Shown here piece by piece: positions 11,743-58,935 of a stretch of 64,000 bases of DNA. The DNA is from Verrucomicrobiia bacterium. GTDB taxonomy: Bacteria > Verrucomicrobiota > Verrucomicrobiia > Verrucomicrobiales > Akkermansiaceae. The first letter of the stretch is position 1. Each line of letters begins with the position of its first letter. A program made the translations under genes and the position numbers. The notes below the pieces were generated by a model. It saw only the letters and a program-made list of their open reading frames with translations. It did no database searches and was not told where the DNA came from. The stretch lies in NCBI GenBank assembly GCA_030430455.1, contig JAUIJB010000012.1, positions 1 through 64,000 on the forward strand. Reading direction: 5' to 3'.

Positions 11743-12513
11743 GTGTCCCACCGATCCGTTCCCGCCGCCCTCGCCCTCGCCGCCCTGCCCGCGGCCGCCG
11801 CCACTCCCCTGCCCTCTCTCGAGCCGGACTCGTGGCCCGCCGGGCGCGCCCGCTGGTCGACCGGGACCGCGCCGACCATGGAGGTCGTCGGGGCCGCCGA
11901 GGCCACCCCGGACGATCCCCGCTGGCGCTTCGGCCTGCACTACTTCCAGGGCACCTCGAACGCCCTCGGCGACGTCTTCACCGGGTCGATCGACGCGCTC
12001 GCCCAGAACGGCCTGCGCTTCACCGCGGCACGGGTGCTGACCACCGACCTGTGGAACACCCCGATCGACGTCCTCGCCGAGGGCGGCATCATGTGGCACG
12101 ACGAGAAGGGCAAGCAGCCCAACCTGTTCCAGTACACCCTCGGGCTGAAGTTCGAGTGGGACGAATTCCCCTGGGACTGCCACCTGCGCACCCGGCTCGG
12201 GTTCACCACCGGGATCTCCTACGCCGAGCACATCCCGATCGCCGAGCAGGTCAACCGCCGGGGCGCCTCGAGCTCCCACCTGCTCCACTACCTCGACTTC
12301 TCGCTCGCCCTGAACTGCGCCGACATCAGCCGCCTGACCCGCTTGGAGCTGCTCTTTCCCGGCGACGATGCCAGTGGCATCGACAACGTCTGGCTGACCA
12401 TCGGCGTGCCCCACCGCTCCGGGGCCTGGGGCCTCTACGGTGACGACAACACCGGCAAGGCGATCCAAGGCGGCTCGAACTACCTCTCCGTCGGCATCGA
12501 GGCGGACTTCTGA
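11743..12513 (+). CDS. Secreted, probably outer-membrane beta-barrel protein of unknown function
   Basis: About 256 residues from a GTG at 11743, chosen because it gives a clear signal peptide (SVPAALALAALPAAAATPLP); a TTG 48 bases upstream is possible. The mature part has alternating polar and aromatic residues (FGLHYFQGTSNALGD, LFQYTLGLKFEWDEFPW, LLHYLDFSLALNCAD) and ends in a strand finishing with Phe (VGIEADF), as expected for a barrel inserted by the BAM machinery. General resemblance to small acyl-hydrolase-like barrels was considered, but no catalytic triad was identified. It follows the SLC13 gene on the same strand. Confidence 0.65.
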   Translation: MSHRSVPAALALAALPAAAATPLPSLEPDSWPAGRARWSTGTAPTMEVVGAAEATPDDPRWRFGLHYFQGTSNALGDVFTGSIDALAQNGLRFTAARVLTTDLWNTPIDVLAEGGIMWHDEKGKQPNLFQYTLGLKFEWDEFPWDCHLRTRLGFTTGISYAEHIPIAEQVNRRGASSSHLLHYLDFSLALNCADISRLTRLELLFPGDDASGIDNVWLTIGVPHRSGAWGLYGDDNTGKAIQGGSNYLSVGIEADF

Positions 12514-12613
12514 TTGTCGATTGAAGATTTCCGATTAAGATTGGGAAATGCCTGTTCCGGCGCATCCTCGAGGGATGGATCAATCGGCAATCGGCAATCG
12601 GCAATCGGAGATC
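12514..12613. repeat. Heptamer-periodic inverted arms (GATT / AATC)
   Basis: The gap between two convergent genes holds a left arm of four 7-nt steps starting GATT (12513-12545) and a right arm of four identical CAATCGG steps (12580-12607). The right arm is the reverse complement of CCGATTG, so the two sides can pair imperfectly as a long hairpin. The loop contains a smaller stem CATCC/GGATG. A further palindrome GGAGATC/GATCTCC at 12607-12623 overlaps the stop of the minus-strand gene. Similar loci with other core words occur elsewhere in the window. Confidence 0.8.
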
Positions 12614-13639
12614 TCAGATCTCCAGCATGTGGGTGATGTGGGCGGCGGTCAGTTCGCCCATGGTCCGGCAGTCGTGGAAGACGTCGGTGTGATGGTACTT
12701 CTCGAGGTCGCGGGCGAGGGTCGCGACGTGTTCGCGCGGTGCCAGCTCCTCGCGCCGCATGACCCCGAGCAGCGCCTTCAGGCGGACCTTCTCCACCTTG
12801 GCCCGGCGTGACATCTGGGCGTGTTCCTCGGCGACGTACTGCTCGATCGTCTTGCGGTTGAGCACCTCGAAGGCCAGCCGGGTGATCGCCTTGTTGGAGT
12901 CGAAGCGGTAGGCCAGGTAGGTCTTGCCCCGCTTCTCGTAGCTCTGCTGGTCGAAGTCGATCGGCCGCACGCGGTACTGCACCTCCTCGAAGTCCGGGGT
13001 CATCTCGACCACGTAGTTCACGCTGCGCATGTCGCCGAGCAGGCGCACGAAGCAGCGCTCGTTGAACTTGGTGAACTCCTTGGCGATGCGGACCTTGTTG
13101 ACCCGGCGCCGCTTCAGCTCGTCGGCGAGGAAGACGTTGCCGGGAATGCCGGCGATGTGCTCCTCGATCAGGGTGTTGCCCTTGACCAGGTAGTTGATCC
13201 GGTTCGGCGAGAGGACGTGCTCGATCTCCAGGCCGTAGATCCGCGAGGCGTCGGCGTGCTTGACGTAGAAGTAGTCGGAGTTGTCGTTGTAGAGGTTGGT
13301 GACGCGGATGCGGAAGGGCCGCGAGTTGCCGAACTCGCCGAAGTCGACGCGGTCGACCTGGAGGTGCTCGTGGTGGTCGGTCGCACCGCCGCCGATCTTG
13401 AGCTCCTCGTAGATCCGGATCAGCGCCTCGCGCAGCTCGCGCATGTGCTCCGGCGGGTAGAAGACCGTCAGCCAGAGGGTCTCGCGGCCCTGTGGGTCCT
13501 CATAGGGCATCGAGCCCGCGAAGCGCCGCAGGTCCTCGTAGACGTTCGGTATATCCCTCTGACGGTCAAAGTGATACAGATACTGGCGCAGGGGCGCCGA
13601 AATGCCGTAGGTCTGCTTCCGGCGGGAGATCATCGCCAT
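12614..13639 (-). CDS. Conserved hypothetical protein, 341 residues
   Basis: I do not recognise a named family. The protein is soluble and charged, starts MAMISRRKQTYGISAPLRQ, and has no signal peptide or membrane segment. It contains many basic and acidic residues, several tyrosines in the middle (NLYNDNSDYFYVKHADASR) and a C-terminal helical part (EEHAQMSRRAKVEKVRLKA). Codon use is like its neighbours and the frame is intact for over 1 kb, so it is a real gene. Its ATG lies 76 bases from the stop of pyrE upstream on the same strand. There is no evidence for a function. Confidence 0.8.
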   Translation of the reverse strand: MAMISRRKQTYGISAPLRQYLYHFDRQRDIPNVYEDLRRFAGSMPYEDPQGRETLWLTVFYPPEHMRELREALIRIYEELKIGGGATDHHEHLQVDRVDFGEFGNSRPFRIRVTNLYNDNSDYFYVKHADASRIYGLEIEHVLSPNRINYLVKGNTLIEEHIAGIPGNVFLADELKRRRVNKVRIAKEFTKFNERCFVRLLGDMRSVNYVVEMTPDFEEVQYRVRPIDFDQQSYEKRGKTYLAYRFDSNKAITRLAFEVLNRKTIEQYVAEEHAQMSRRAKVEKVRLKALLGVMRREELAPREHVATLARDLEKYHHTDVFHDCRTMGELTAAHITHMLEI

Positions 13640-14319: not shown

Positions 14320-14621
14320 AAGTGCGGAGTGGGGGGGAGTCCACGCGACCCCAAGATGCCTGCAAAGCACCGCCCTCACCCAAAGCGGCTCCCAGCCCCG
14401 GGTGAGGCCCAGCCGAACCCCATCGGTCCTATAGGACCCATAGGACCGATGCCCGGTGCTCCGCAGACTCCTCCCATGCGCTCCCAAGAAGCCTGCAAAC
14501 CACCGCCCCCACCCAAAGCTGCTCTCAGCCCCGGGTGAGGCCGAGCCGAACCCCATAGGTCCTATAGGACCCATAGGACCTATGCCCTGCGCTCCGCAGC
14601 ATCCACCCAGGCGCTCCCCAA
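14320..14621. repeat. Two tandem copies of a ~133-bp intergenic element with TAGGACC palindromic core
   Basis: Two direct copies start near 14352 and 14485 (period about 133). Each contains a conserved stretch (GCCTGCAAA then CACCGCCC, CACCCAAAGC, CAGCCCCGGGTGAGGCC) followed by a palindromic core of GGTCCTA, TAGGACC and a second TAGGACC at about 14425-14451 and 14557-14584. The copies differ at scattered positions only. The same element occurs in inverted orientation at 48395-48600, and its core occurs twice at 20570-20745. There is no reading frame with family similarity. A short AGTGCGG/AGTGGGG heptamer run lies at 14327-14337. Confidence 0.85.
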
Positions 14622-14655
14622 GAAAAAGCCGCCGACCCGGACGGGCGGCGGCTTG
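14621..14655 (-). terminator. Rho-independent terminator of rplU-rpmA
   Basis: On the minus strand an 8-bp GC stem (AAGCCGCC with GGCGGCTT on the other side) closes a short loop and is followed by a run of five T. It lies 27 bases past the rpmA stop, the expected place to end the L21-L27 transcript. Confidence 0.85.
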
Positions 14656-20409: not shown

Positions 20410-20569
20410 CCACCTTGAAGTCAGCGAGTCTGAGGATGATTCCGCTGGTTGGGGAAGGCGAGGCGCAGCGCTGAGGGACGGTGGTGGTGCAGCCGGTTGG
20501 CCATGCGGACCGGCTGGAAAGCGCGGGTGGGGCGATGAGTGGCTGGGAGAACAGGCGGAGCACAGGGAA

Positions 20570-20745
20570 TAGGACCGATAGGACCCATGGGACCTATCTG
20601 GCGTGAGGCTGCGCCTCACCCTTGAATTTTGGACGGCTCCGGAAGGTGAGGTCCCGCCCCGCCCATCTTCGCAGCGACAGGGCCGACACTGCGGAGCCCA
20701 GGAGATGCTCCCATAGGTCCTATAGGACCCATAGGACCTATTTCC
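20570..20745. repeat. Two copies of the TAGGACC-core intergenic element, diverged
   Basis: Two palindromic cores with the same TAGGACC words as at 14425 and 48415 lie at about 20570-20598 and 20715-20741, in the gap between the vapBC-type unit and mnmG. The first core is flanked on the left by GCGGAGCACAGGGAATAGG, as in the copy at 48400; the second is followed by CGCTCCGCC. The long conserved arm of the 133-bp unit is replaced by other sequence. A hairpin GTGAGGCTGCGCCTCAC at 20602-20618 lies between them. Confidence 0.75.
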
Positions 20746-28954: not shown

Positions 28955-28982
28955 GCCGGGCGGCTGCCTGGGTGAGCCGAGC

Positions 28983-29190
28983 GGCTGCGACCCCTGCCGG
29001 GGTCGGATGGGGTCGCACGCCTCCGGGGGTGTCGCTGCGCTCGACCCCCGGCTAATGGCTGTGACCCCTACCGGGGTCGGTGGAGGGCGTGAACGAACTC
29101 CGGGGGTGTTGCTGCGCTCGACCCCCGGCTAACGGCAGTGACCCCTGCCGGGGTCGCTGGAGGGCGTGGACGAACTCCGGAGGTAGGTGA
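28983..29190. repeat. ~77-bp tandem repeat with two hairpins per unit
   Basis: Units begin near 28983, 29057 and 29134 (the last partial). Each contains the palindrome GACCCC-TGCC-GGGGTC and then a longer stem CCGGGGGT/ACCCCCGG around GCTGCGCTCG, ending in GGCTAA. The copies differ at few bases. This fills most of the gap between the E2 gene and the photolyase gene. Confidence 0.85.
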
Positions 29191-39355: not shown

Positions 39356-40897
<1,542 letters not shown>

Positions 40898-40899
40898 GT

Positions 40900-40965
40900 T
40901 ATACGTTACTTGTTATTTGTTATTGGGAAAACAAATAACAATTAACCACTAACCCTTAACAGACA
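40900..40965. repeat. Heptamer-periodic hairpin between atpA and atpG (GTTA / TAAC)
   Basis: The left side steps every 7 nt through xGTTAxx four times (40896-40923). The right side steps every 7 nt through xTAACxx four times (40935-40962). The inner 12 bases TTGTTATTTGTT (40910-40921) and AACAAATAACAA (40930-40941) pair perfectly with an 8-base loop. The segment is far more AT-rich than the flanking genes. Confidence 0.85.
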
Positions 40966-41867: not shown

Positions 41868-43454
<1,587 letters not shown>

Positions 43455-48394: not shown

Positions 48395-48591
48395 GCGGAG
48401 CGCAGGGGATAGGTCCTATGGGTCCTATAGGACCTATGGGGTTCGGCTGGGCCTCACCCGGGGCTGAGGGCCGCCTTGCGTGGGTGCGGTGCTTTGCAGG
48501 CTTCTTGGGAGCGAATGGTTGGAGGCTGCGGAGCACAGGGCATCGGTCCTCTGGGTCCTCTAGGACCGATGGGCTTCGGCCGGGCCTCCCC
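48395..48591. repeat. Inverted-orientation copy of the TAGGACC-core element, two units
   Basis: Two units in the opposite orientation to the pair at 14352. Cores lie at about 48411-48437 and 48543-48571, and between them are GGCCTCACCCGGGGCTGAG and GTGCTTTGCAGGCTTCTTGG, the complement of the arm in the 14.4-kb copies. The second core has extra C/T changes (CTCTGGG, CTCTAGG). Confidence 0.85.
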
Positions 48592-56285: not shown

Positions 56286-56585
56286 CTATTTCCCCAGATC
56301 GACGATCTGCTCGAGCAGGGCGAGGTAGTCCTGGAAGGCCTTGCGGCCGGCCGGGGTGAGCAGGTAGCGGGTTTGTGGCCGGCCCTCGCCGGTGATTTTC
56401 TCGGACTCGAGGTAACCGGCGCGCTCGAGGTGGCGCAGGTGGGTGATGAGGTTGCCGTCGCTCATCTCCAGCTCGCCCTTGAGGTCCTGGAACGGCCACG
56501 GCGCGGCGCGCGAGGCGAGCAGCGTCATGATCGCCAGCCGACCCTTCTCGTGGATCGTCTTGTCGAGCTTGCTGAAATCGATCAT
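56286..56585 (-). CDS. Winged-helix transcriptional regulator
   Basis: 99 residues, a stand-alone DNA-binding domain of the ArsR/MarR-like helix-turn-helix group with the pattern FQDLKGELEMSDGNLITHLR (recognition helix) and ESEKITGEGRPQTRYLLTPA (wing). No metal- or ligand-binding Cys/His is seen. Its ATG overlaps the stop of the membrane gene upstream by 4 bases, so the two are co-translated; such pairs often have the regulator control its membrane partner. Confidence 0.88.
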   Translation of the reverse strand: MIDFSKLDKTIHEKGRLAIMTLLASRAAPWPFQDLKGELEMSDGNLITHLRHLERAGYLESEKITGEGRPQTRYLLTPAGRKAFQDYLALLEQIVDLGK

Positions 56586-57202
56586 GCGCCGTCGGTCCGG
56601 CCGGTGGTGACGATCATGGCCCCGTAGAGCAAGTGGAACCCGCCGAAGGTCGCGGCCATGAGGCCCGAGGGACCGAGCTTGGAAACCAGCGGGGTGGCCG
56701 ACTGCACGAAGGTCACCGCCGACAGCGAGAGCAGCCCGGTGGCGAGGAAGGCCAGCCCGAGCCAGCCCATCGAGCGCGGCGCGAACTCGCGGATCGCCAG
56801 CAGGGCGAGGCCGTAGTGGAGGATCCAGAAGCAGGCCGCGAAGGTCTCGCACTTGGGGCTGCCGAAGCGCAGGTAGAGCAGGCCGAGGAAGCCGCCGACC
56901 ACCAGCGAGGGCAGCCCGCCGCGCAGCGCCACCCGCAGGCCGTGGGACCAGAACGGCCGACCGTGGGCGATCGCCCGCCGCTGCAGCTGCCACAGGGCGA
57001 AGAGGATGACCAGGCCGAGGCCGACGAACCACGGCGCACCCCAGGCCCAGGTGTCCTTTCCCTCGCTCAGCCACCCTGCCGCCAGCGCCGCCGCCCCGCC
57101 GACCAGCGCCGCCTCGCCGGAAAGCGCGCGGAACAAGGTCGCCCGCTCCATCATCGTCCGGATCACCCGCAGCTGCTCCGCCGCCTCTTCATGGGTCGTC
57201 AT
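56582..57202 (-). CDS. Integral membrane protein paired with the regulator
   Basis: 206 residues with about six hydrophobic segments (WFVGLGLVILFALWQL, LPSLVVGGFLGLLYLRF, FWILHYGLALLAIREFA, GLAFLATGLLSLSAVTFVQS and others). The N-terminal part EEAAEQLRVIRTMMERATLF is a charged helix. The family is not recognised. It overlaps the winged-helix gene by 4 bases; a long repeat-filled gap lies upstream. Confidence 0.8.
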   Translation of the reverse strand: MTTHEEAAEQLRVIRTMMERATLFRALSGEAALVGGAAALAAGWLSEGKDTWAWGAPWFVGLGLVILFALWQLQRRAIAHGRPFWSHGLRVALRGGLPSLVVGGFLGLLYLRFGSPKCETFAACFWILHYGLALLAIREFAPRSMGWLGLAFLATGLLSLSAVTFVQSATPLVSKLGPSGLMAATFGGFHLLYGAMIVTTGRTDGA

Positions 57203-57265
57203 GCCGCGGACTTTGCGAAGCAAAGCGCCCTCCGGCAAGCGCGGAGTGCTCCCCGCCCACTGCCG

Positions 57266-57460
57266 GTGGTCCGTGGTCCCGTGTCCTTTGTCCCTTGTCC
57301 CTTGTCGAAGAAGGCCCTTGGAGTCGAGCGAAGCGCGCTGCAAGCGCGTCCCAGAGAAGCTCATGTGCCTCCGCGCCTCCCATGATCGACAACGGACAAC
57401 GGACAACGGACAAGGGACAAGGGACAAAGGACAACGGACAACGGACAACGGACAAAAAAG
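57266..57460. repeat. Heptamer-periodic hairpin (GTCC / GGAC), longest locus
   Basis: Left arm: six 7-nt steps with GTCC (57268-57309). Right arm: ten consecutive 7-nt steps, nine of them GGACAAC or a last-base variant (57388-57457). A 24-base segment (57283-57306) is the exact reverse complement of 57409-57432, with 102 bases between. The gap lies upstream of the membrane-protein gene. Confidence 0.9.
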
Positions 57461-57514
57461 CCCGCCACTTCATCGCGACCCGAAGTCGTGCCCAAGCGCC
57501 TCACTCCAAACCCG

Positions 57515-57612
57515 GCACCAAGCACAAAGCACAACACCCCGCAGCTCACCCGGCTCCGCCCCTCCCGCACCCCACCGCCACGGGCACTTTCCACTTTTTA
57601 CTCGGCACTCCC
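57515..57612. repeat. Two further short heptamer-periodic runs
   Basis: Near 57519-57535 the word AGCACAA occurs twice at a 7-nt step. Near 57586-57612 four 7-nt steps carry ACT (GCACTTT first). The two runs are not complementary. They extend the repeat-rich gap before argJ. Confidence 0.5.
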
Positions 57613-57681
57613 CCCGGACCAGGCGCGATGACGCGGCTGCAAGCCGCCGCTCCGTTCCATGGCGCCGACACGGCGCCACTC

Positions 57682-58935
57682 CTACACCAACCCGTCCTTC
57701 CGCGCCTGCTTCCAGTAGGCATACTCGGACCGGTTGAAGTCGATGTACTCGGGCGAGAGGTCACTACTAAACATGTAGTATTCCGCGTCGCCCTGGTTGA
57801 GGTTGATGTCGATCGTGAACTCCGGCTCGGCGACGATCTCGCGCAGGCGCTCCATCGGGGTCTCCGCCTGCAACCCGCCGAGGCAGGCCGCCGCGCCGTT
57901 GTAGCGGATGTCGACCAGCTCCTCGCGGATGCGGGCCCGCGAGTAGCCGATGGCGTGGATCACGCGGCCCCAGTTCGGGTCGCCGCCGTTCCACGAGGCC
58001 TTGACCAGGGCCGACTTGCAGACCGCCTCGGCGACCTTCTTGGCGTCGAGGTAGGTGCGCGCCCCGGCGACCCGCACGGTGACGAAGCGGGTCACCCGCT
58101 CGCCGTCGCGGACGATCGCCTTGGCCAGCTCGAGCATCAGCCAGCGCAGCGCGTGGCGGAACTGCCGGCAGCGCGGGCCGTTGCGGCGCACCGGGGGAAT
58201 GCCCGACTCGCCGTTGGCCAGCACCAGCACCGTGTCGTTGGTGCTCATGTCGCCGTCGATGGTGATCCGGTTGAAGCTCTCCTCGACCGCCTCGAGGGTC
58301 GCCTTCTCCAGCGTCTCCTGCGGGATGTTGGCGTCGGTGGTGATGAAGCACAGCATCGTCGCCATGCTCGGGCAGATCATGCCGGCGCCCTTGACGCAGC
58401 CGCCGAGGCGCACGCGGGTGCCGCCGAGGTCGAAGGACACCGCGATCTCCTTGTGGACGGTGTCGCTGGTCATGATCGCCTTGGCGACGTCGGTGCCGCC
58501 CTTCGAGGAAAGCTTCTCGACCAGCTTGCCGAGCTTCGGCTCGATCCGCTCCATCGGCATCGGCAGGCCGATCACGCCGGTCGAGCAGACGCCGACCTGC
58601 TGCGGCTTGATGCCGAGCGGCTTGGCCACCCCCTTGGCCATGGCCTTGGCGTCGTTGAGCCCCGGCAGGCCGGTGCAGGCGTTGGCATTGCCGGAGTTGG
58701 CGATGATCGCCTGCAGCCGGTTGCGCCGCATGTGGGTGACGGTCAGCTTCACCGGCGCCGCCTTGACCCGGTTAGTGGTGAAGGTGCCGGCCGAGCTGCA
58801 GGGGGCCTCGGAGGCGACCAGCGCCAGGTCGAGGCGCCGCGACGAGGGGTCCTTGATCCCGCAGGAAACCGCCGCGGTGCGGAATCCTCGGGGCGCGCCG
58901 ACGCCTCCCTTGATGCGGGTCAGATGGGTGTCCAT
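57682..58935 (-). CDS. argJ: Bifunctional ornithine acetyltransferase / N-acetylglutamate synthase ArgJ
   Basis: Recycles the acetyl group in arginine synthesis. It has 417 residues. The self-cleavage site lies in CPSMATMLCFITTDA near residue 190 (between Ala and Thr), giving the two subunits. GTFTTNRVKAAPVKLT, IIANSGNANACTG and the C-terminal YNGAAACLGG/NQGDAEYY segments are typical. ArgJ of this type suggests a cyclic acetyl pathway. It follows argC on the same strand after 31 bases. Confidence 0.96.
   Translation of the reverse strand: MDTHLTRIKGGVGAPRGFRTAAVSCGIKDPSSRRLDLALVASEAPCSSAGTFTTNRVKAAPVKLTVTHMRRNRLQAIIANSGNANACTGLPGLNDAKAMAKGVAKPLGIKPQQVGVCSTGVIGLPMPMERIEPKLGKLVEKLSSKGGTDVAKAIMTSDTVHKEIAVSFDLGGTRVRLGGCVKGAGMICPSMATMLCFITTDANIPQETLEKATLEAVEESFNRITIDGDMSTNDTVLVLANGESGIPPVRRNGPRCRQFRHALRWLMLELAKAIVRDGERVTRFVTVRVAGARTYLDAKKVAEAVCKSALVKASWNGGDPNWGRVIHAIGYSRARIREELVDIRYNGAAACLGGLQAETPMERLREIVAEPEFTIDINLNQGDAEYYMFSSDLSPEYIDFNRSEYAYWKQARKDGLV

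Follow-up and report, generated by a model that had tools for sequence, protein, structure and literature searches.

A dispersed hairpin element with matched heptamer arms in a Verrucomicrobiia genome, possibly a gene-less relative of IVP-flanking cassettes

Introduction

What are the two facing heptamer arrays in the gap between argJ and a membrane-protein gene of this member of the Verrucomicrobiia, and how do they come to match each other? Intergenic heptameric arrays have been described for decades, and we know of no accepted cause for them. The S23/IVP protein (PF05635), a four-helix-bundle protein of 23S rRNA intervening sequences (IVSs), is widespread and to our knowledge has no known function. 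Its gene is optional in the known IVSs, and many 23S rRNA intervening sequences have no protein gene.

Paired heptamer arrays as such are already known. Rehm et al. reported GGGAATC arrays in two genomes of Xanthomonas, where they form 70 and 75 inverted pairs, and also GGGGA(C/T)T arrays in Nostoc; G-quadruplexes were discussed, and no association with mobile elements was reported (PMC4692102). The P6b stem of the Nostoc tRNA-Leu(UAA) intron consists of paired class I and class II heptanucleotide repeats (PMC4476775). Warrier et al. described tandem GACAGAT heptamers directly before S23p in the 23S rRNA IVS of Coxiella burnetii, where heptamer number differs between strains and RNase III cuts in the stem (PMC4990558).

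Results

The window, by which we mean the whole 64,000-nt stretch that was analyzed, carries the arrays in an argJ/membrane-protein gap of ~480 bp (57203..57681). TRF, an inverted-repeat search and reading by hand delimited a left arm (57266..57306, + strand, as are all parts of the element given here) of six steps ending in GTCC or GTC (GTGGTCC GTGGTCC CGTGTCC TTTGTCC CTTGTCC CTTGTC), the outer two of which are degenerate (GTGGTCC); TRF scored 4.4 copies of a 7-nt unit at 57276-57306. TRF and reading by hand placed the right arm at 57388..57455, with 9.7 copies and 95% matches by TRF and ten GACAA-N-G steps by hand (GACAACG three times, GACAAGG twice, GACAAAG, GACAACG three times, GACAA). The earlier note's ten GGACAAC-type steps and six reverse-complement steps 102 bases away are therefore both present; in the inverted-repeat search, 57261-57306 and 57409-57454 were 87% complementary, with a spacing of 102 nt. 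Its 24-base exact inverted repeat is indeed exact and is one base longer than described, 25 nt (57282..57306 with 57409..57433). The right arm is not uniform: in its middle the units are GACAAGG GACAAGG GACAAAG. These variants recur in the left arm, in matching order as reverse complements, which accounts for the 25-nt match. Between the arms lies a non-coding core, GAAGAAGG...CATGATC (57307..57387), with two small GC-rich hairpins, as defined by folding, core comparison and a six-frame search. Comparison with other copies (see below) added a conserved right end, AAAAAGCCCGCCACTT (57456..57472), and, together with TRF, a second, short array of the word GCACAAA (57515..57534), which has the same relative place in several copies. 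The left end of other copies, GGCGGGCTTT, is the inverse of AAAAAGCCCGCCACTT and is unrecognizable in the window copy.

The periodicity is not a product of chance, as the earlier note had maintained: the two tracts reached lag-7 scores of 53.5 and 19.0, compared with a peak of 16.5 when the whole 64-kb window was shuffled 20 times. Nor does a codon-like reading frame explain it, since a period of 7 does not suit a frame and the tracts lie in a gap between two genes. Folding of the stretch predicted that the terminal complementary arms form a stable stem-loop, both as RNA from the + strand (-98.8 kcal/mol, z = -5.1) and as DNA of the - strand (-61.4 kcal/mol, z = -6.9).

A strong predicted hairpin on both strands, a terminator-like site at the argJ-side end, and two adjoining genes that both lie on the - strand are what one would expect of a cis-regulatory RNA hairpin (an attenuator, terminator or stability element) serving the - strand argJ, membrane-protein and regulator genes. 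We found no Rfam match in 56900-57800, even at E 1, and the element is absent from orthologous gaps while the same core adjoins unrelated genes elsewhere in the genome, all of which makes this explanation improbable. Searches of the window in six frames gave no IVP match, and the stretch has no DNA similarity to plasmids.

Orthologs of the membrane-protein gene, present in 15 of 17 congeners, allowed the gap to be compared. The argJ-adjacent gaps of four relatives measure 65, 68, 72 and 84 bp, against 480 bp here; the window stretch has therefore been inserted. Two other relatives carry a different palindrome in this gap (L205 and L209), and one carries a different gene-less heptamer hairpin (L214), so that the gap repeatedly collects hairpins. 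The window insertion is probably composite. Set against the unfilled gaps it showed no readable target-site duplication, the gaps being too diverged. A separate palindrome, CTTTGC-N3/4-GCAAAG (57210-57228), lies directly before the membrane-protein gene start and is kept in nearly all relatives read; it may serve as an operator for the conserved gene of a small regulator next to it (56286-56585).

The element belongs to a dispersed family. In the assembly of this organism (4.22 Mb in 150 contigs, 91% complete and broken at repeats), the pattern GGACAANGGACAANGGACAA gave 20 matches at ~14 places and its reversed control none; CATGATCGACAANGGACA, with up to 2 mismatches, was found at 18 places, and the two patterns together mark ~20 sites. 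The core is shared by 12 extracted matches, and the window core matches the genome-wide core at 77% over 95 nt. Several copies have a common anatomy: a left end GGCGGGCTTT-TGTCC, GTTGTCC units and GTCGAAGAGGCGCTTGAAGTCGAGC..CAAGCGC, then a variable middle, then AAGCTCATG..GCGCTC..CATGATCGACAAC, GGACAAC units and a GGACA-AAAGCCCGCC end. The heptamer arms, of 2 to 10 units, enclose a core of two small hairpins, and further outward several copies have a second-word array (GCACCAA/GCACAAA). Other palindromic REP-like units are nested in the middle or within the heptamer array (L010, L033 and L025); those inside arrays sit at a GTCC/GGAC step (L033, about 1500-1590; L010, left arm). The neighboring genes of different copies are unrelated. 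A BLAST search with the 95-nt core among 97 genomes matched this genome only and none of the 96 relatives; a stricter pattern found one further record, a Verrucomicrobiia MAG contig (L039). Congener G010 gave 21 matches to the reversed control pattern, which suggests from sequence that this congener carries a long array of its own, built from a different heptamer word.

A dispersed, multicopy palindromic unit is also what a REPIN- or MITE-like DNA element moved by a Y1 (RAYT/TnpA-REP) transposase would present, with the core hairpins as the recognized part and the heptamers as secondary expansions. As generally characterized (for REPINs, PMC3116915), REPIN, MITE and BOX palindromes are likewise short, non-coding, lineage-specific, dispersed and hairpin forming. 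The genome has 21 Y1_Tnp matches, the GGACAAC family is lineage-specific, its core holds REP-like palindromes, and several copies have further REP-like units nested in them. At 6 inspected Y1 loci of the 21, the flanks held neither the core nor the element ends; the family also departs from these palindromes in having variable heptamer arrays as arms, with no transposase partner or target-site duplication identified. Heptamer arms are, moreover, common to IVP cassettes with unrelated cores (see below). We consider a Y1-moved element a serious candidate, though a rather unlikely one.

The earlier note had asked for a genome-wide search, and this genome has similar arms at other places. Across 1.04 Mb of its sequence (the window plus fetched stretches, some of them picked for carrying the element), 66 period-7 tracts scored at least 15, compared with 28 of period 9, 20 of period 12, 16 of period 8 and between 1 and 9 for each of periods 10, 11 and 13; 3-mer-shuffled sequence gave no tracts even at a score of 12. 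The same threshold gave 22 tracts of period 7, 17 of period 9 and 10 of period 8 in 567 kb of contigs selected without regard to the repeat, so that many tandem intergenic heptamers, the mark of the cyanobacterial short tandemly repeated repetitive (STRR) sequences, are present there. Coding sequence makes up a putative 82% of the sequence and holds the middle of 29% of the 66 period-7 tracts. The words include GGACAAC, AGTGAGC, GGATGGT, GGAGGTC, GTAGCCG and AGAGCGG.

Other repeats of the window were recorded alongside. An inverted pair AGTGATC/GATCACT (41872-41983; RNA fold z -5.7) lies between putative atpG and atpD and is of the same word type as IVP locus L054 (AGTGAGC); an almost loopless hairpin GTTATTT/AAATAAC (40894-40960) lies between putative atpA and atpG; and a gene-less inverted pair (GATTG.. 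with CAATCGG four times; fold z -3.6) is found at 12509-12622. Palindromic CCCATAGGACCTATAGG units (14349-14624, 20569-20594, 20710-20738 and 48412-48440), once as a 133-bp tandem, form a further dispersed repeat of this genome. A 77-bp tandem repeat (28982-29184) has the REP-like unit CGGGGGTGTCGCTGCGCTCGACCCCCGGCTAA, which also occurs around a Y1 transposase gene (L226).

Heptamer arrays of many words, period 7 being the commonest, and arms that match within a locus could also arise with no element-specific function, if replication slippage made arrays in any hairpin-holding gap and quasi-palindrome correction copied one arm onto the other. We regard this explanation as unlikely: it leaves unaccounted for the core and ends shared by many copies, and equally the inverted arrays that flank IVP genes in a roughly 150-fold excess, which we describe next.

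In two relatives (G012 and G049), GGACAAC arrays adjoin a gene for the 23S rRNA intervening-sequence protein, and all four PF05635 loci of the genome under study have heptamer-like flanks of other words. An IVP gene with GGACAAC arms was not found in the genome itself, as far as the assembly (91% complete, with breaks at repeats) shows. We collected 74 IVP loci, the top-scoring matches from the relatives and this genome, mostly the former, with gene starts taken from the profile rather than the annotation. Lag-7 identity in their 90-nt flanks was 0.40 and 0.39, compared with 0.257 in controls, and other lags were near background. The best inverted match between the upstream and downstream flanks had a median of 14.25, whereas pairing flanks from different loci gave 6.25 and the direct orientation 6.0; the inverted match reached at least 14 at 55% of IVP loci and in 1% of mismatched pairs. 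Of the IVP genes, 74% had an inverted match of at least 12, compared with 0.5% of 587 other genes in this genome and 0 of 19 neighbor genes, the roughly 150-fold excess mentioned above; this gene-flank control is mostly from the own genome, whereas the IVP loci are mostly from relatives, and several of the IVP-flank and arm statistics rest on related sequences. The words differ between IVP loci while the two arms match within a locus, and the cassettes have unrelated cores. The words of the four own-genome cassettes are over-represented among the gene-less arrays of that genome (P = 0.04, a weak signal from four loci only).

The association extends to plasmids. At 15 plasmid IVP loci (fourteen cyanobacterial and one from Riemerella), lag-7 identity was 0.46 and 0.47 versus 0.265, and in Nostoc edaphicum inverted arrays (GGGAGTA..CCCTACT) lie between nrdB and nrdA. 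The likeness to cyanobacterial heptamers that the earlier note had remarked on may thus go deeper than the surface, as arrays flank an IVP-type gene both there and in the relatives of this genome; the words differ. What cannot be kept is its statement that the paired inverted arms are different: inverted pairs are published for Xanthomonas (PMC4692102) and the Nostoc intron P6b (PMC4476775), and here they are the usual arrangement at IVP genes. The IVP cassettes are often placed within an operon, between two of its genes (cas6-cas4, cas10-cmr3, nrdB-nrdA, pheS-pheT and metK-ahcY; names at Verrucomicrobia loci were assigned by reading translations). Several (L189, L195, L199 and L052) are within CRISPR-cas operons, at cas6-cas4, at cas10-cmr3 and, in the own genome, next to a cas4-cas1-like gene.

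IVP proteins group by site (argD-argF, 6 of 6 with support 0.998; livF, 4 of 4 with 0.987; site A, 11 in a clade of 12), indicating that these cassettes were inherited in place. Heptamer words nevertheless differ among orthologous cassettes at one site, and by permutation own arms matched each other better than they matched orthologs' arms at site A (P < 0.0001) and argD-argF (P = 0.007), with P = 0.08 at livF and P = 0.09 at metK-ahcY. Both arms therefore change in concert, either because one is copied onto the other or because pairing is selected for. In the GGACAAC family, the left arm of the window copy has a 25-nt match in the right arm of the same copy and one of at most 14 nt in the right arms of other copies; arm matching inside this family rests mainly on the window copy, the one clearly informative copy.

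Discussion

We propose to read the window element as one gene-less copy of a selfish hairpin element that is dispersed and resembles intervening sequences, and put the probability of this reading at about one half. Like the IVP-flanking class, it has a pair of inverted arrays built on a single 7-nt word and a locus-specific arm match, and it has no IVP gene between them; from this we infer that it belongs to that class without a protein gene of its own. With a non-coding core of ~80 nt it is classed as gene-less and IVS-like rather than as an IVP cassette. An IVP cassette that had lost its gene was considered and is unsupported, as the core is conserved in its own right and shows no similarity to IVP coding sequence. 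Arm polarity was dropped as a difference from IVP cassettes; both polarities occur around IVP genes, which makes it uninformative.

On the proposed reading, the arms would pair as a long stem in RNA, and cutting of this stem by RNase III, or its toleration, would make insertion between genes harmless. Slippage would alter the number of 7-nt units, and arm pairing would keep the arms matched through hairpin-templated copying or selection for pairing. The element would spread selfishly with help in trans, for which IVP-dependent mobilization is the leading candidate. PF05635 resembles the DGR protein Avd (PMC10053308). A reverse transcriptase partner was considered and rejected, as the sole RVT_1 gene in the assembly looks to be of the group II intron type.

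Among the closest known systems are the 23S rRNA IVSs, for example the Coxiella IVS with S23p (PMC4990558), which shares inverted arms forming a long stem, a variable number of heptamers in an arm, the S23/IVP gene (here in relatives) and insertion where continuity is unneeded. The window element differs in lying between protein genes, argJ and the membrane-protein gene, rather than inside an rRNA gene, in having no S23/IVP gene in any of six frames, and in pairing chiefly through heptamers, which both of its arms carry. The Nostoc P6b repeats (PMC4476775) likewise pair as complementary arrays in a stem, with variable unit number and motif switching, but are within a group I intron and have no dispersed core. 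The Xanthomonas and Nostoc heptamers (PMC4692102) are intergenic arrays too, in Xanthomonas often inverted pairs; what distinguishes the present case is the many words, the arm match per locus and the IVP genes between arrays. The Beggiatoaceae TAACTGA repeats (PMC4679880) are intergenic heptamer tandem arrays, some also in cyanobacteria and Bacteroidetes, yet nearly always direct repeats upstream of start codons, with one inverted case. We found no literature report of a general link between heptamer arrays and IVP genes; the search mostly excluded subscription papers, so novelty is unproven.

More tentatively, and as a possibility that we would not favor at present, heptamer arrays at large (the cyanobacterial STRRs, the verrucomicrobial arrays and perhaps the Xanthomonas pairs) could be the self-pairing ends of one class of IVP/S23 mobile cassettes, with the IVP protein acting on the stem and gene-less copies moved or maintained in trans. 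The strong, locus-matched association between heptameric arrays and the S23/IVP protein gives each of them a testable partner, and arms that stay matched yet change fast offer a natural example of two inverted repeats evolving in concert.
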